From Fibrobacter sp. UWR3 (GTDB lineage Bacteria; Fibrobacterota; Fibrobacteria; Fibrobacterales; Fibrobacteraceae), in assembly GCF_900143055.1 (NCBI RefSeq), contig NZ_FRCW01000008.1, positions 124,001-188,000 on the forward strand: a stretch of DNA of 64,000 nucleotides, written 5' to 3'. The position numbers and the translations under genes are program-made. How positions within the stretch are numbered: the first letter of the stretch is position 1; the number at the start of each line of letters is the position of its first letter. Positions 2,111 through 29,058 of the stretch are shown here, in pieces. The notes below the pieces were generated by a model. That model saw only the letters and a list, made by a program, of their open reading frames with translations, searched no databases and was not told the origin of the DNA.

Positions 2111-2674
2111 CTAGAACAGCATCTTCACGCCGATTGCAATCAGAATAATCCCCGCGATAATCTCGGGGATTTTTGTTTTGAAGCGCTTGGCGGCGTGCCT
2201 GCCTATCTCGTACCCGATGACGCCCATGGCAAAACTTGCCAGTGCGATTGCGGAGGTGGCAAGCGCCATGTTCGCATTTATGAACGCGAAGGAAATCCCT
2301 ACGGCAAAGGCGTCGATGCTTGTCGCTACCGAAAGGAGCAATATGTTTGCTATGGTGAGGTTCTTCGCTGCAATCTTTTCGCCTTCTTCTTCGCCGCTGT
2401 CCCCGCGGATTGCGCCCCATATCATGCGGCCTCCCAGAATGCAGAGGATGGTGCAGGCGATGGGCGTGCCTACGGAACTGAACCAGCGTTCGGCGAAGCT
2501 CCCGAGAAAGTACCCGAGGAGAGTCATGACGCCCTGGAATACGCCGAAACTAACCGCCTGGAGCAGCGCTCGGCTATAGCGGATGCCCGACTTGGAAAGC
2601 CCGGTGGCAATGGCGACGGCAAAGCAGTCCATGGCCTCGACGATGGCGATAACTATGTTTTCTACGATTCCCAT
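2111..2674 (-). CDS. mntP: MntP-type manganese efflux pump
   Basis: A 187-residue polytopic inner-membrane protein with about six hydrophobic segments, the usual MntP length. The two internally repeated acidic motifs of the family are present: DCFAVAI near residue 17 and SIDAFAVGISF in the second half. These carry the aspartates thought to handle Mn2+. The start ATG at 2674 overlaps the end of tsaE by 13 nt, so the two are probably co-transcribed. Because tsaE lies directly upstream there is no room for a yybP-ykoY manganese riboswitch, the usual control of mntP elsewhere. Any manganese control must act elsewhere. Confidence 0.9.
   Translation of the reverse strand: MGIVENIVIAIVEAMDCFAVAIATGLSKSGIRYSRALLQAVSFGVFQGVMTLLGYFLGSFAERWFSSVGTPIACTILCILGGRMIWGAIRGDSGEEEGEKIAAKNLTIANILLLSVATSIDAFAVGISFAFINANMALATSAIALASFAMGVIGYEIGRHAAKRFKTKIPEIIAGIILIAIGVKMLF
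2148..2178 (+). terminator. Intrinsic terminator of the SDR gene, inside the mntP coding end
   Basis: ATCCCCG (2148-2154), a 9-nt loop, CGGGGAT (2164-2170), then TTTTTGTTTT. It lies within the last 70 bases of the convergent mntP gene, so those codons also encode the neighbour's terminator. Confidence 0.65.
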
Positions 2675-3075
2675 TTTTCGACGGTCACTTCGCGGACGTT
2701 TTCCGAGACAATCTCGATGTTAATCTTATACGTGACATCGTACGTCTGCCCGTCAAGCCTTTCCGGCCATTCGATTAGCGTGACGCCCCTGGAAAGGTAG
2801 TCGTGGTCGAACCCGACCTCGTACAGTTCCGCACCCGGTTCCAGGCGGTAAAGGTCGAAGTGGAAGAGTGGCGGGTCGTTCGGGTATTCGTGCAGAATGG
2901 TGTAGGTGGGGGAGCAGACCGAGCCTTCGAACCCGAGGCCCTTGCATATCCCGCGGCTCATCACTGTCTTGCCCGCGCCGAGGTTCCCGTACAGCGCGAC
3001 CATGTCACCCGCCTTGAGCGACTTCCCGAATTCCACGGCCCAGTTGTACGTCTCTTCTTCGCTGTTAAAAATCAT
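2662..3075 (-). CDS. tsaE: tRNA N6-adenosine threonylcarbamoylation ATPase TsaE
   Basis: A 137-residue P-loop ATPase of the t6A37 tRNA modification complex (with TsaB, TsaD and TsaC). Walker A is GNLGAGKT at residues 30-37. It is followed by the family motifs SPTYTILHEY and FHFDLYRL and by the C-terminal EWPERL. ATG 3075 was chosen because it follows GGAAGGA at a good distance. A longer reading frame upstream runs through the 7-nt repeat array and is not credible. tsaB is in the same window at 61.2-62.0 kb. Confidence 0.93.
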   Translation of the reverse strand: MIFNSEEETYNWAVEFGKSLKAGDMVALYGNLGAGKTVMSRGICKGLGFEGSVCSPTYTILHEYPNDPPLFHFDLYRLEPGAELYEVGFDHDYLSRGVTLIEWPERLDGQTYDVTYKINIEIVSENVREVTVEKWES

Positions 3076-3084
3076 TACATCCTT

Positions 3085-3183
3085 CCCGCAATAAACATCC
3101 CGCACCCCGCAATAAACATCTCGCAACCCGCAACACTAATAACCAATAACTAATGACTAATGACTAATGACTAATGACCAACT
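3085..3183. repeat. Heptanucleotide-phased tandem array (14 units)
   Basis: Fourteen consecutive 7-mers stay in strict phase from 3085 to 3182. The tsaE side reads CCCGCAA TAAACAT CCCGCAC CCCGCAA and so on. The nspC side reads AACTAAT followed by GACTAAT three times and GACCAAC. The array ends exactly in the nspC stop codon (3182-3184) and fills the tsaE-nspC gap. Confidence 0.85.
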
Positions 3184-24911: not shown

Positions 24912-26663
24912 TCAAACCCGTACAATCTCGTCGCACAGCTCGCAGATGGCGGTGCGGTGAGTGATGAAGATCATCGTCTTTTCGGGGGAGGCGGCAAAGA
25001 GGCGCGTGTACAGCTCGCGTTCGGTTTCTTCGTCGAGCGACGCGCTGATTTCGTCGAGCAAGAGGATGCTGCCCGGGCGAAGTAACCCGCGGGCAATCGC
25101 GATACGCTGTGCCTGGCCCTCGCTGAGGCCCGCGCCCCGCTCGCCGATTTCGGTATCGAGCCCGCAGGGGAAATCTAGCACGAAGTCTGCACAGGCGGTA
25201 TGCAAAGCCGCCCTGAGTTCCTCGTCGCTTGCGCTAGGCTTTGCAAGGAGCAGGTTGTACCGGATGGAACCGCTCATGAGCGTATTGCCTTGGGGGACAT
25301 ATACGAAATTCGCCCGCGTCGCCTTGCCTGCGGGGAACTCGTTGTTGCCTGCAGGGGCCGCTGTAGGCTTGTCGCCCGAGTTAGACTGCGCCGCATATAC
25401 CGAGACGTGCCCGCCGGTAGGTTCGATAAACCCGAGCATGAGCCTGAAGAGGGTCGTCTTCCCGGCGCCGGTTTCGCCCAGGAGGGCTGTCTTTGTACCC
25501 GGTTTAAAATCGTGCGTAAAGTGCGATACTATTTCGCGGTCACCCTTCGCGTACTTGAACGTGGCATCCTCGAACCGCACCCCGGCCGCGCCGTTTAATA
25601 CCGCGCCGTTTAATACCGCGCCGTTTAACAGAGAACCGTTTGATACAGCACCGTTTGATTCCTCGCCGTTCGCCGCAGGCGCGTCGCTTACCGCAAGCGC
25701 GTTGCCAGCAACATCGTCGCCTGTACGGATTTCCTCGAGCCTGTCGATACTTGCGGTGGAGTGCACGACCTGCGGGGTCATGTTGAGTAGCGTGAGAATC
25801 GGCTGCTGGATTTGCCCCACCAGCTGCAGGAACGATGTCATGACGCCGAACGTGATTACGCCGTTCCTGAGCCCGATACCGCCCCACACGAATGCCATCA
25901 GGTAGCCGATGCCGAAGGCGCACCCGAGCATGAACCGCGTGACGGTCGAGAACTTTGTCCTGCGCTGCACGCCACTCTCGAGTTCGCTCTGCATGGTGCC
26001 GAGGCGCTCCGTCATCCACTGTTCGCTCCCGAGAGAGCGCAGTACCGCATTGTGTTCCACGCCTTCCTGCACATGCATCTGGATATTGCTTTCCTTCTCG
26101 CGGATATCGTGCGTCATGTTCTTGAGGCGGTGGGCGATAAACTTGCCGATGATAATCGCGAACGGCGTGAATATCACGAGCGCCCAGGCGAGTCGCGCAT
26201 CGAAGAACCGCATCAGCAGGAACGCGCCTAGCAACTGCAGGCCCGTAACGACCATCTGCGGGAGCGTGTCGGCAATGACCGTCGCTACGGAATCGATGTC
26301 CTTCGTGAGGCGCGAGGTTATGTCGCCGGAATGGAAGTCGTGCTCGCTAAAGAGGTGCTTCGAGAAATACCTGCCGAAGAGGTCTAGCCGGAGCGCGTTA
26401 GACTTGCGCGTGACGGTGACCGTCGTCATGTAGTAGTAGACCTGGCGGAGCAGGATTCGCCCCACGACGGTAAGCACGAGGAATGCAATCATCCATGCGA
26501 TTTCGCGCGATGTTCCCGTGCGTATGGTCTCGTCGATAAACTTCTTGGAGAGCCATACCATCAAAAGCCCGAGCACCACCTGGACCGAACCGATCCCGAT
26601 GCGTACCAGGGCGTTTAGCCGTGTACCGCGCGTGTTGCGCCATAGCCAGGCCGCGTATTTCAT
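24912..26663 (-). CDS. ABC exporter (fused membrane and ATPase domains) of the PqqD/peptidase/kinase cassette
   Basis: A 583-residue half-transporter. A six-helix membrane domain spans about 1-300 and an ATPase domain spans about 350-583. Walker A is GETGAGKTT, the signature LSEGQ, Walker B ILLLDEIS with the catalytic Glu, and the switch His is in FITHRTA. There is no N-terminal C39 leader peptidase; the S24/S26 peptidase two genes upstream may fill that role. A 15-bp minisatellite encodes NG-x-x-x repeats in the linker, and an extra Ala/Gly-rich stretch sits between Walker A and the Q-loop. ATG 26663 overlaps the PqqD stop (ATGA). Confidence 0.9.
   Translation of the reverse strand: MKYAAWLWRNTRGTRLNALVRIGIGSVQVVLGLLMVWLSKKFIDETIRTGTSREIAWMIAFLVLTVVGRILLRQVYYYMTTVTVTRKSNALRLDLFGRYFSKHLFSEHDFHSGDITSRLTKDIDSVATVIADTLPQMVVTGLQLLGAFLLMRFFDARLAWALVIFTPFAIIIGKFIAHRLKNMTHDIREKESNIQMHVQEGVEHNAVLRSLGSEQWMTERLGTMQSELESGVQRRTKFSTVTRFMLGCAFGIGYLMAFVWGGIGLRNGVITFGVMTSFLQLVGQIQQPILTLLNMTPQVVHSTASIDRLEEIRTGDDVAGNALAVSDAPAANGEESNGAVSNGSLLNGAVLNGAVLNGAAGVRFEDATFKYAKGDREIVSHFTHDFKPGTKTALLGETGAGKTTLFRLMLGFIEPTGGHVSVYAAQSNSGDKPTAAPAGNNEFPAGKATRANFVYVPQGNTLMSGSIRYNLLLAKPSASDEELRAALHTACADFVLDFPCGLDTEIGERGAGLSEGQAQRIAIARGLLRPGSILLLDEISASLDEETERELYTRLFAASPEKTMIFITHRTAICELCDEIVRV
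25591..25670. repeat. 15-bp minisatellite inside the ABC exporter gene
   Basis: Units of CCGTTTAATACCGCG start at 25591, 25606, 25621, 25636 and 25651, with a partial unit at 25666. The first two are identical and the others drift. In frame they encode the pentapeptide pattern NGAVL between the membrane and ATPase domains. Confidence 0.85.
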
Positions 26664-26929
26664 TCTACGACGCCGACCTTCTTCCATTCTTCGACGATGG
26701 CGGCGACATCCGTCTTGGCCTGTTCCGCGCTCACGTCGTATTCTTCGCAAAGGGCCTCGACAAGAGAATCGACGCTGAATTCGCCCGCGGCGTCTGCCTT
26801 TTTCCAAAGGAATACTGCCGTCTCGTTGAGGCACAGGAGCCGCCCGAAATCGAGAGCGCCGATACCTTCGCCCATAATCACCTGTTCGCCGCACACGTCG
26901 CGCAGCACGAATCCGCTTTTCAGTTTCAT
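26660..26929 (-). CDS. PqqD-like peptide-binding (RRE) protein
   Basis: An 89-residue protein of the PqqD family. Such winged-helix domains hold the leader peptide of ribosomally made, modified peptides (RiPPs). Family marks are the N-terminal strand pair, then LDFGRLLCLNETAVFLWKKAD (the conserved LN-x-T/S-A-x-x-L-W pattern), and the C-terminal helices FSVDSLVEALCEEYDV and VAAIVEEWKKVGVV. It overlaps the peptidase gene upstream and the exporter downstream by 4 nt each (ATGA). No precursor peptide or core-modifying enzyme was found beside it. Confidence 0.85.
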   Translation of the reverse strand: MKLKSGFVLRDVCGEQVIMGEGIGALDFGRLLCLNETAVFLWKKADAAGEFSVDSLVEALCEEYDVSAEQAKTDVAAIVEEWKKVGVVE

Positions 26930-27375
26930 AATGCTTTTACCTTTTCTAAAACTCTATAGCACAATAGTAGCCATTTCCGCGCGGGCCTGAGCTTGCACCA
27001 GAGCGATGCGCGTCGCCTCGATTGCCTTGAAACGAGCGAGCGGCGTTTACCCTTGCTGTTCACGGCATAAGTGGCCTGCGCCTTGATATCCGTAACCTTG
27101 CAATGTTCAACCCCGTAGAGGTTTCCGTCGCCCATGAGAATCACGCTTTCGCCGTCGATTTTCAATATGCGGTGTATGACGTAGCGGTTGCCTTCGACAA
27201 ACGCAAGCACGATATCGCCGACCTGCGGGGCAATCGCCTTTTCCAGGACGACGCTTTCACGGCCACCCACGATAAACGGGAGCATGCTCCTGCCGTTCAC
27301 GGGGAAGGTGACCGGGATTCCTTCCGCTACAAGCCGGATAGCTTCCGCGAGAATTTCGTCGTCCGAAACGTTCAT
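26926..27375 (-). CDS. S24/S26-family (signal-peptidase-like) serine peptidase
   Basis: A 149-residue peptidase-fold protein. The nucleophile serine is in NGRSMLPFI. The second catalytic position is in GNRYVIHRIL, a His where bacterial signal peptidase I has Lys, as in archaeal or ER signal peptidases. GDIV and MGDGN are the remaining family boxes. There is no clear N-terminal membrane anchor, and a basic then hydrophobic C-terminus (RKWLLLCYRVLEKVK) may associate with the membrane. ATG 27375 overlaps the kinase stop. The context suggests cleavage of a leader peptide rather than general secretion. This is an inference. Confidence 0.82.
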   Translation of the reverse strand: MNVSDDEILAEAIRLVAEGIPVTFPVNGRSMLPFIVGGRESVVLEKAIAPQVGDIVLAFVEGNRYVIHRILKIDGESVILMGDGNLYGVEHCKVTDIKAQATYAVNSKGKRRSLVSRQSRRRASLWCKLRPARKWLLLCYRVLEKVKAL

Positions 27376-28232
27376 GCTTCCTGTACCCTTATGGCGTTGT
27401 AGCTGGTATTGGCCGCATCCGCGTCGGGAAGGCATTCCAGGTACCAGGTAGGCACCCTCATCGCAAGTGCATTTTCGGTTTCGTGAAGCCCGTCGGCGAT
27501 TTGCTTGTCCCAGCGCTTGCCGGAGATGCTCGGCACGAGGGCTGCATAAGCCTCTATCCCGCGTAACCGCTCAATCTTGTTGTAGGGAGCCTGGATCAAG
27601 AGCACGATGCCCCCGAGGGCGCAAGAATCGTTCTTATAGCAGGGCGTCTTGCCGCTCCAGGGCGAACCGAACACGCGGATTTCGTTATCGAAGACGCGCA
27701 CCACCGGGTTGTCGTCGTTCAGGAGTTCCGTACCCTCGATGTTCTCGAGCCAGAGCCGCGCGTGCGTGCTCTTTCCCGTGCCGCTCTTGCCGAGGAACAT
27801 GTACCCGTAGCCTTCATGCTTTATTACGGCCGAATGGAATAGAGCCGTCTTGTGGCGGGCCGTCGCAAGAGCGTAGAAAACCATCAGCGAGTTGTTTATC
27901 GAAAATTTCTGGGCGAATTCGGTGAGGTAGAGCGTTCCCCGCCGGTATTCTCCTTCGCAAACAAGCGTCCCGCAAATCCTGTTCTGCAGCCTGAATTCAA
28001 ATACGGCGTCGTTGCCCTGCGTGTGCCCGCAGATAATCTGCTGGCCTTCCTCGTCCTGCCTGGTCTCTTCGGTAAATGCGGGGGAGTCGCCCTTCTCGAT
28101 TTTCAGGGAAAACAGCGCGGATTCGTCGCCTGCATAGGCGAACGGCGCGTAGTTGTCGAGCAGCGGGGCAATTTCGAGCCCGGATTCCAGAGTGAAAACG
28201 TGCCCTGCGACCTTGTATGAATAACATGCCAT
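27372..28232 (-). CDS. HprK-like P-loop kinase of the PqqD cassette
   Basis: A 286-residue protein resembling HPr kinase/phosphorylase and the kinases of some lasso-peptide clusters. Walker A is GKSGTGKST in the middle, preceded by FHSAVIKHEGYGYMFL. LLNDDNPVVR (metal/acid site) and FGSPWSGK follow. It lacks the N-terminal HprK domain, and no HPr or PTS genes are close. First gene of the four-gene cassette, divergent from lptE. Start ATG 28232 has AAAAGG ten bases upstream. Probable role: phosphorylating a peptide or a small molecule in the pathway (inference). Confidence 0.82.
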   Translation of the reverse strand: MACYSYKVAGHVFTLESGLEIAPLLDNYAPFAYAGDESALFSLKIEKGDSPAFTEETRQDEEGQQIICGHTQGNDAVFEFRLQNRICGTLVCEGEYRRGTLYLTEFAQKFSINNSLMVFYALATARHKTALFHSAVIKHEGYGYMFLGKSGTGKSTHARLWLENIEGTELLNDDNPVVRVFDNEIRVFGSPWSGKTPCYKNDSCALGGIVLLIQAPYNKIERLRGIEAYAALVPSISGKRWDKQIADGLHETENALAMRVPTWYLECLPDADAANTSYNAIRVQEA

Positions 28233-28299: not shown

Positions 28300-28821
28300 A
28301 TGTTCTTGTTCAACGGAAAGGTCTTTACCCGGTTGCTTGCATGTGTTAGCCTGTGCCTGCTTACGCTTGCATTTTCGGGCTGCTATAGCTTTACGGCAAG
28401 TACGCTCCCGAGCCACATCAAGACGGTGCAGATTCACGATGTCGAAGACAAGGCCCTCGACCCGGTGCTTGCAAACGACCTCCACACGGCAGTCGTCGAC
28501 ATGTTCAAGAAGAACGCCGGCGGTATACGTCTCGTGAACGAGGACGCAAATGCCGATTTCGAGATTACGCTCCTGAGTTACGCGAACAAGCCCGAGAACT
28601 ACAACAGCAACAGCGATGTGGAAACCTACCGCGTTACTATCCGCGTGAGCGTGAAGTTCTACGACAACGTGAAGGAACGCATTATCTACGAGAACAAGTC
28701 GCTCTCTGCCGACGGCGTGTACGATATCCAGAAGAACGAATCCGAAGAAAGGCACGGCCAGGCCCGCGCCATCGAGAAGCTGCAGGACCTGATTATCGCG
28801 AACGCCCTCGCGAAGTGGTAG
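28300..28821 (+). CDS. lptE: LptE-like LPS-assembly lipoprotein
   Basis: A 173-residue outer-membrane lipoprotein that would plug and support LptD during lipopolysaccharide insertion. The signal peptide ends in the lipobox FSGC (Cys about 27). GCYSFTASTLPSHIKTVQIHDVEDKAL is the typical FCB-type LptE beginning, and an alpha/beta body of normal length follows. The start lies 4 nt after a TACATTTG box and lacks a Shine-Dalgarno. No lptD is adjacent. Confidence 0.85.
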   Translation: MFLFNGKVFTRLLACVSLCLLTLAFSGCYSFTASTLPSHIKTVQIHDVEDKALDPVLANDLHTAVVDMFKKNAGGIRLVNEDANADFEITLLSYANKPENYNSNSDVETYRVTIRVSVKFYDNVKERIIYENKSLSADGVYDIQKNESEERHGQARAIEKLQDLIIANALAKW

Positions 28822-28857
28822 TGCTCGCTTCTTATAAATACAAAAGCAAATACTCGC

Positions 28858-28894
28858 ACGAAGTGATTGTGTGAGCGTGTGGGAACTCCTTCCC
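28858..28894. repeat. Partial copy of the REP-like element
   Basis: The 22-nt loop core at 28858-28879 is identical to the core of the 81-nt elements. A GGGAA/TTCCC hairpin follows at 28881-28894, with a degenerate stem around it. Confidence 0.6.
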
Positions 28895-28977: not shown

Positions 28978-29058
28978 TTTGCGTAGAGGGGCACTTTGCA
29001 AAGCGAACACTGGAACGAAGTGATTGTGTGAGCGTGCGAAGTGCCCCTTGAAGCAAAC
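28978..29058. repeat. 81-nt REP-like structured element, copy B
   Basis: Same length as copy A at 13854-13934. The stem is GGGGCACTTTGCA with TGCGAAGTGCCCC, and the loop is identical to copy A. It ends 12 nt before the NUDIX stop codon, in the convergent gap after lptE. No protein gene is evident in 28822-29070. Confidence 0.85.

Follow-up and report, generated by a model that had tools for sequence, protein, structure and literature searches.

The closest described relatives of the gene cassette discussed here, a four-gene set in the bacterium Fibrobacter sp. UWR3, belong to ribosomally synthesised and post-translationally modified peptide (RiPP) systems. Linear Polyphosphorylated Peptides (LPPs) were described in Nat Commun in May 2026 from the lppA-K-B-S-D-N genes of Paenibacillus alginolyticus, and they were reported to be restricted to Bacillota, with patchy relatives there (PMC13381572). 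The core of an LPP cluster consists of a SpI peptidase, a discrete RiPP recognition element (RRE), an HprK-like kinase, a nucleotidyltransferase (NTP transferase) and an MsbA-like exporter, and there is no cyclase. LppB, the RRE, binds the YxxP leader of the precursor, with N33 and D70 holding its Pro kink and its Tyr. LppK adds up to four phosphates to Ser3, the SpI-like LppS (S29, H68, D93) cuts after T-1 with the help of LppB, and LppD is the exporter (PMC13381572). Kinases of this kind are also known from phosphorylated lasso peptides. For example, in the biosynthesis of the lasso peptide BsfA the kinase BsfK targets Ser3, aided by the RRE (PMC10368454), and PsmN, a nucleotidyltransferase homologue, has been linked to hexoses on the phosphoserine of pseudomycoidin (PMC9266682).

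The stretch of DNA that we analysed (the window) comprises 64,000 nucleotides, positions 124001-188000 of contig C8 (NZ_FRCW01000008.1), from a genome of 3.55 Mb that is estimated to be 100% complete. We propose, with a probability of roughly 0.85, that the cassette is the only set of genes in this genome for maturing and exporting ribosomal peptides that form an LPP-type family. All six LPP functions can be found in the Fibrobacter system, that is, kinase, RRE, Ser-His-Asp peptidase, exporter, NTP transferase and YxxP precursor. Furthermore, as in LPPs, there is no cyclase, the C-terminus of the precursor is variable, a conserved Ser stands at the third position after the presumed cut, and the RRE has equivalents of N33 and D70. 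A preliminary description, made from the letters of the window, had proposed a possible new kind of RiPP-type system. The second half of this claim was borne out, and the refuting condition of a missing conserved short open reading frame (ORF) did not hold, since the cassettes co-occur with a family of such ORFs; the novelty was not borne out, because the genes match those of the LPPs (PMC13381572).

The cassette genes and their identity

The four ORFs lie on the minus strand between positions 24912 and 28232 of the window (C8:148912-152232). Their coordinates agree with the earlier observation that the genes share one strand and overlap by ATGA at every junction: each of the three junctions is an overlap of these four bases. 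The first gene (27372..28232, 286 aa) codes for an HprK-like peptide kinase similar to LppK, PadeK and BsfK, with the Walker A motif GKSGTGKST, H133 and an LNDD motif. It scores below the Pfam cut-off (Hpr_kinase_C, 15.4 vs 33.3), and the structure closest to its profile in the Protein Data Bank (PDB) is the HprK entry 1ko7 (E 0.006); H133, K154, N172 and D174 are invariant in an alignment of 22 relatives. The second gene (26926..27375, 149 aa) codes for an LppS-like leader peptidase resembling the SipW and archaeal signal peptidases. It, too, remains under the Pfam cut-off (Peptidase_S24, 19.9 vs 23.3), and its best NCBIfam match, sigpep_I_arch (3.7e-5), is below the cut-off of that model. 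Its residues S30, H68 and D83, invariant among 20 relatives, make up the predicted Ser-His-Asp set of archaeal/SipW-type signal peptidases. No membrane anchor was evident when the sequence was inspected by eye.

The third gene (26660..26929, 89 aa) encodes a PqqD-family RRE similar to LppB and to lasso B1 proteins, with a winged-helix fold, and matches Pfam PF05402 at 57.3 bits against a cut-off of 23.4. The best PDB matches of its structure model (pLDDT 90) are the TbiB1-leader and TfuB1-leader complexes, with TM scores of 0.74-0.76. The refuting condition of a missing peptide-binding groove therefore did not hold, these matches being lasso B1 proteins crystallised together with their leader peptides. 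Residues N35 and D74 align with the N33 and D70 by which LppB binds its Tyr leader. The fourth gene (24912..26663, 583 aa) encodes an LppD-like ABC exporter of MsbA-like build, with a transmembrane domain followed by a nucleotide-binding domain (ABC_membrane and ABC_tran); there is no C39 peptidase domain. MsbA_lipidA is among its best NCBIfam matches, at 206 bits and under the equivalog cut-off. Between the membrane and ATPase domains, at 25590-25660 of the window, the exporter gene carries 15-bp near-repeats (coding NGAVLNGAVLNGA).

HprK-like kinases and PqqD-like proteins also occur as pairs in the HPr-rel-A and SynChlorMet systems (TIGR04352/TIGR04353 and TIGR04248/TIGR04249). However, the Fibrobacter matches to the known NCBIfam PqqD and HprK systems are far under the curated cut-offs, and we rejected these assignments: TIGR04352 reached 19.1 of 200 bits, TIGR04353 17.1 of 35, PQQ_PqqD 17.2 of 46 and TIGR04248 26.1 of 100.

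While the four genes that the preliminary description listed are all present, its inventory missed a fifth one, the NTP transferase (NTP_transf_5, PF14907), which is unlinked from the cassette in UWR3. The genome has two copies of it outside the cassette, at C8:70028-70843 and C10:46514-47290, with PF14907 scores of 142.9 and 119.1 bits, and there is a precursor beside each.

Precursors and their co-occurrence with the machinery

In UWR3 and in most of its relatives, ORFs of 37-63 aa are found directly upstream of the NTP transferase genes. These ORFs have a common N-terminus, KKxYxxPxMxVVxLxxxxxLLxxS, followed by an unrelated C-terminus. A profile search of the whole UWR3 genome places precursors only at C8:69667-69913, about 79 kb from the cassette, and at C10:47394-47555, on another contig. 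The earlier reader was therefore right both in seeing no precursor near the cassette and in suggesting that it might lie elsewhere. The two loci hold two intact ORFs of 42-55 aa (MTNMEKEKKEYVAPKMDVVNIQARGRLLGASSDPPIFHGDGG; MNLKFEKKEYVAPKLSFIDMRGEMYLLAGSGDGPDADEYDDELGFNLNEGANRHV), that on C10 beginning with MNLKFEKKEYVAPKL, plus one broken copy, the first of a tandem pair on C8 (locus L067, 7669-7795), which has an in-frame TAA in the leader.

Over 104 precursors, the consensus of the leader is Y..P.M.VV.L.HQ..LL..S. Note that the pattern by which these precursors were selected included Y, P and LL, and that the Ser was not a part of it. The distance from Tyr to LeuLeu is 16 in 100 of them, and the residue at L+4, the last position of LL..S, is Ser in 93 and Thr in 4. 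Column entropy rises from less than 1 bit at the conserved Ser to 3-4 bits beyond it, such that a hypervariable core follows a conserved leader. The leader codons are under purifying selection, with a pN/pS of 0.26 and pN < pS in 172 of 173 pairs, which are not independent of each other. Except for a chance-level bZIP match, no Pfam or NCBIfam model matched the precursors.

Next, we asked how the precursors and the machinery are distributed, and ran profile searches on 44 Fibrobacter genomes with a completeness of at least 90%. Precursors (1-13 copies per genome), the NTP transferase and the single-copy PqqD gene were each found in 41 genomes, and the kinase and the single-copy peptidase in 40. 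Three genomes (G001, G016 and G038) have neither precursor nor kinase, peptidase or NTP transferase; the PqqD hit counted for G038 is weak and stands within a long frame. Fisher tests of the co-occurrence gave p = 8e-5 to 3e-4, with phylogeny ignored. For at least 33 of 79 NTP transferase genes, a precursor lies no more than 3 kb upstream and on the same strand; among the precursors listed, two were found downstream of such a gene and none on the other strand. In turn, the NTP transferase gene is directly upstream of 25 of the 40 kinases. In G018 and G019 the kinase is separated from the peptidase and PqqD genes and follows right behind a precursor (in G018, C16:2040-2183 for the precursor and 2223-3092 for the kinase).

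A PqqD-based scan of genome contigs gave 62 loci, mostly from Fibrobacter, then from rumen Bacteroidales and Prevotella, and a few from Clostridia. Prevotella aff. ruminicola Tc2-24 and Prevotella sp. khp7 are among the carriers of cassette relatives. The preliminary description had advised a search for the four-gene order and for small ORFs nearby: kinase-peptidase-PqqD-ABC is the common order, seen again in numerous genomes of Fibrobacter and Bacteroidota, the short-ORF family is conserved, and in many loci the NTP transferase gene stands directly upstream of the kinase. All 11 Bacteroidota genomes that hold close relatives of the cassette contain the peptide family, in 2-16 copies; with the A1 profile, it was not found in a distant bacteroidial relative (L057) or in six clostridial genomes. 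In the kinase and RRE trees, which have long branches, Fibrobacterota and Bacteroidota form one clade apart from Bacillota. The PqqD proteins of the two phyla are 58-69% identical, which suggests lateral transfer.

In summary, we propose the following order of events. The PqqD protein would capture precursors of 37-63 aa, whose genes lie at other places in the genome, by their YxxP leader. Phosphorylation, or polyphosphorylation, by the HprK-like kinase would then take place on the near-invariant Ser, which would be core position 3, the site used by LppK and BsfK, if the leader ends at LL. A decoration of the phosphate may be added by the NTP transferase, which is not linked to the cassette. 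The SipW-type peptidase would cut off the leader, and the ABC protein would export a linear phosphopeptide. We assume these steps because of the biochemistry of LppA-K-B-S-D-N and of BsfA-K-B1, the match of the PqqD fold to leader complexes and the alignment of N35 and D74. That phosphorylation might itself be the modification had been one of the options named earlier, and it is the likely one.

Several observations weigh against this reading. The link between precursors and machinery is based on their co-occurrence and on their adjoining each other in relatives, since they are unlinked in UWR3 itself. In G015, a genome with 90% completeness and 7% contamination, precursors and the NTP transferase are present, and PqqD, kinase and peptidase were not detected. 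LppK rejected an S3T substrate, and seven of the 104 precursors have neither Ser nor Thr at L+4; besides, no final LPP product was identified in the LPP paper (PMC13381572). The leader also differs: the consensus in Bacillota is YxxPxVLxHQxIxFETxxS, and Tyr and Ser are 18 residues apart there vs 20 here. YxxP, the subsequent HQ and the terminal Ser are common to both, whereas FET and the spacing are not; the Bacillota pattern is a consensus and was not presented as a condition for being an LPP. Finally, the RRE tree, built on 57-aa fragments and with long branches, does not place the Fibrobacterota and Bacteroidota clade (95/92) with LppB, and the position of the clade relative to LppB is tentative. 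Other differences from the LPPs concern the organisation of the system: its hosts are Fibrobacterota and Bacteroidota rather than Bacillota, it is near-universal in Fibrobacter and not patchy, one cassette serves 1-13 precursors that are mostly encoded far off and paired with secreted proteins, and the NTP transferase lies apart from the cassette in UWR3. On the whole, we consider it likely that the Fibrobacter system belongs to the LPPs in the strict sense.

Among the clostridial loci, that of Clostridia bacterium RGIG2835 (L054, 4753-8276) has a 64-aa YxxP-type ORF (MNLKKSYIKPEIKVES...) directly before an HprK-like kinase, a radical-SAM-like gene after the kinase and a PqqD gene about 2 kb further. 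Similar neighbours (kinase, radical-SAM-like gene and PqqD) are seen in L060 and L062. This cassette is possibly a RiPP system with a kinase and a radical SAM enzyme, and as such differs from that of UWR3. In the window itself, the cassette is flanked by a gene outside the system, which codes for an LptE-like lipoprotein (28300..28821, plus strand; PF04390, 34.3 bits) and is divergent, 67 bp away. Next to this gene, the intergenic region holds two copies of the string acgaagtgattgtgtgagcgtg, at 28857-28880 and 29017-29040.

Paired secreted proteins and alternative readings

We fetched 40 regions around precursors that have no NTP transferase neighbour. Overall, for 87 of 104 precursors the gene immediately ahead codes for a secreted protein with a conserved C-terminal domain (CTD), which ends with ...WFDLKGRKLNxKPTxKGTYYNNGKKVIIK; in several of these proteins a Sec signal is evident. 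A cluster that we first suspected to be a cyclase (c15) turned out to be such a CTD protein. The domain matched no Pfam or NCBIfam model. Its AlphaFold model (pLDDT 83) is all-beta, and neither Foldseek nor VIA-align (best Z 3.1) gave a convincing PDB match, which does not in itself prove a new fold.

Genome-wide profile matches show the same arrangement. A CTD gene lies 0-400 bp upstream on the same strand of 105 of the 150 listed precursors, with a chance of about 0.0003 for each, and around the 150 listed CTDs a precursor is found downstream in 88 cases, upstream in none and on the other strand in one. In UWR3, both CTDs are followed by a precursor. The numbers of CTDs and precursors per genome are correlated (Spearman 0.84; 0.80 among carriers), and CTDs are absent from G001 and G016, with one weak match in G038. 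These data could mean that each mature peptide has a dedicated partner in the secreted protein encoded just upstream of it, that is, that the exported phosphopeptide binds or marks the CTD at the cell surface, perhaps via an added or swapped beta strand. This is a statement about function that is compatible with the LPP-type explanation, and we put it forward as a tentative possibility only.

The same idea draws on the sequences of the cores. Similarity between a core and its own partner was seen for about 10 of the 57 non-redundant cores. It falls at one site, 49-60 residues before the end of the partner (for example MDVEFINRD and MDVEFVNRE, or DDLPETLNVIIR and DELPESMDVVIR), and the best matches are clustered at a predicted strand, residues 227-233. 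The similarity sum of the own pairs was reached in 41 of 20000 shuffles of the partners, a comparison that does not control for shared ancestry. The likeness between some cores and a strand of the paired protein is therefore no more than suggestive. On the other hand, the remaining cores show no such resemblance, many (the DELGF type) are unlike the CTD, and about a third of the neighbours of the Bacteroidota peptides are not CTD-type proteins but different secreted lipoproteins. In an extended version, a single LPP-type cassette would mature phosphopeptides encoded all over the genome. Each of them would be made with its own secreted CTD protein and, once exported, dock on it, in some cases by presenting a copy of one of its strands. 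Phosphopeptide maturation would then control how a family of surface proteins is displayed or assembled in Fibrobacter and Bacteroidales of the gut. This version seems doubtful to us.

Some further observations concern the secreted proteins. In four Bacteroidota loci (L048, 6155-7233; L151; L153; L166) the precursors are located 18-26 bp before, or overlap with, genes of secreted lipoproteins without a Pfam family, and the one in L151 has a weak FimD-like match at its N-terminus. The predicted mature N-terminus of the CTD protein in L011 (4264-5220), EELPDVIDVVIVDPADLP, bears a strand-like motif common to some cores and CTDs. Just upstream of the CTD-precursor-NTP transferase locus on C10 of UWR3 we noticed by eye a gene for a Wzc-like polysaccharide co-polymerase/tyrosine kinase (L068, 10565-12700); capsule loci also host LPP clusters in Bacillota.

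Alternatively, the peptides could serve antagonism or signalling, being bacteriocin- or pheromone-like, with the neighbouring secreted protein as immunity factor, receptor or adhesin. A hypervariable core behind a conserved leader, several paralogues per genome and the patchy relatives in Bacillota (PMC13381572) would fit conflict or communication. However, the system is near-universal in the genus, no immunity-like gene was recognised and the paired secreted proteins are large and of the beta-repeat kind (List_Bact_rpt, GLUG), and we find this explanation rather unlikely.

A different question is whether the cassette could be a part of a phosphorylated lasso system of the paeninodin or Bsf type, with cyclase and B2 protease encoded elsewhere. 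The resemblance is real: such systems (paeninodin; pseudomycoidin, PMC9266682; BsfA, PMC10368454) have a YxxP or WxxP leader bound by a B1 protein or RRE, an HprK-like kinase with a His-Lys-Asp-Asp set, an NTP_transf-like N protein and an ABC exporter; the kinase/NTP transferase pair is found in the Bsf and pseudomycoidin clusters, and our RRE is closest to TfuB1 and TbiB1 in sequence as well as in fold. But nowhere in the UWR3 genome, with its estimated completeness of 100%, is there a match to the B2 family Transglut_core3 (PF13471), and the only Asn_synthase match covers 66 residues at 25.8 bits, so there is no full-length cyclase. Moreover, the peptidase encoded in the cassette is of the SpI type, like that of LPP clusters. 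These searches largely refute the lasso reading, which we regard as very improbable. The weakest option, already raised in the preliminary description, is that the cassette acts on something other than a peptide and that the short ORFs have nothing to do with it. Within the window there is indeed no precursor next to the cassette, but the leader-binding fold of PqqD, the adjacency of precursors to NTP transferase or kinase genes in relatives and the genus-wide co-occurrence of precursor and machinery make this extremely unlikely.

Implications for Fibrobacter and the LPP family

The LPP-type reading thus being preferred, three things are new here: the system is present in Fibrobacterota and Bacteroidota, its precursors are unlinked from the machinery, and most of them are paired with a secreted CTD protein. 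In the open literature that we searched, which leaves subscription papers outside its coverage, there were no Fibrobacter or Bacteroidota versions of the system. A single set of enzymes serves up to 13 unlinked precursors, and since precursors and enzymes are not neighbours, the precursor family is expected to escape RiPP mining that is based on gene clusters.

LPPs were described in 2026 as a family limited to Bacillota, and neither a product nor a role was known for them. In Fibrobacter, whose members are major degraders of fibre in the rumen, the machinery is near-universal, and rumen Bacteroidales have it as well. The pairing with CTD proteins provides the first concrete hypothesis for the role of such phosphopeptides and names a candidate partner: more tentatively than the maturation steps, we would suggest that the peptide may act at the cell surface together with the secreted protein with which it is paired.

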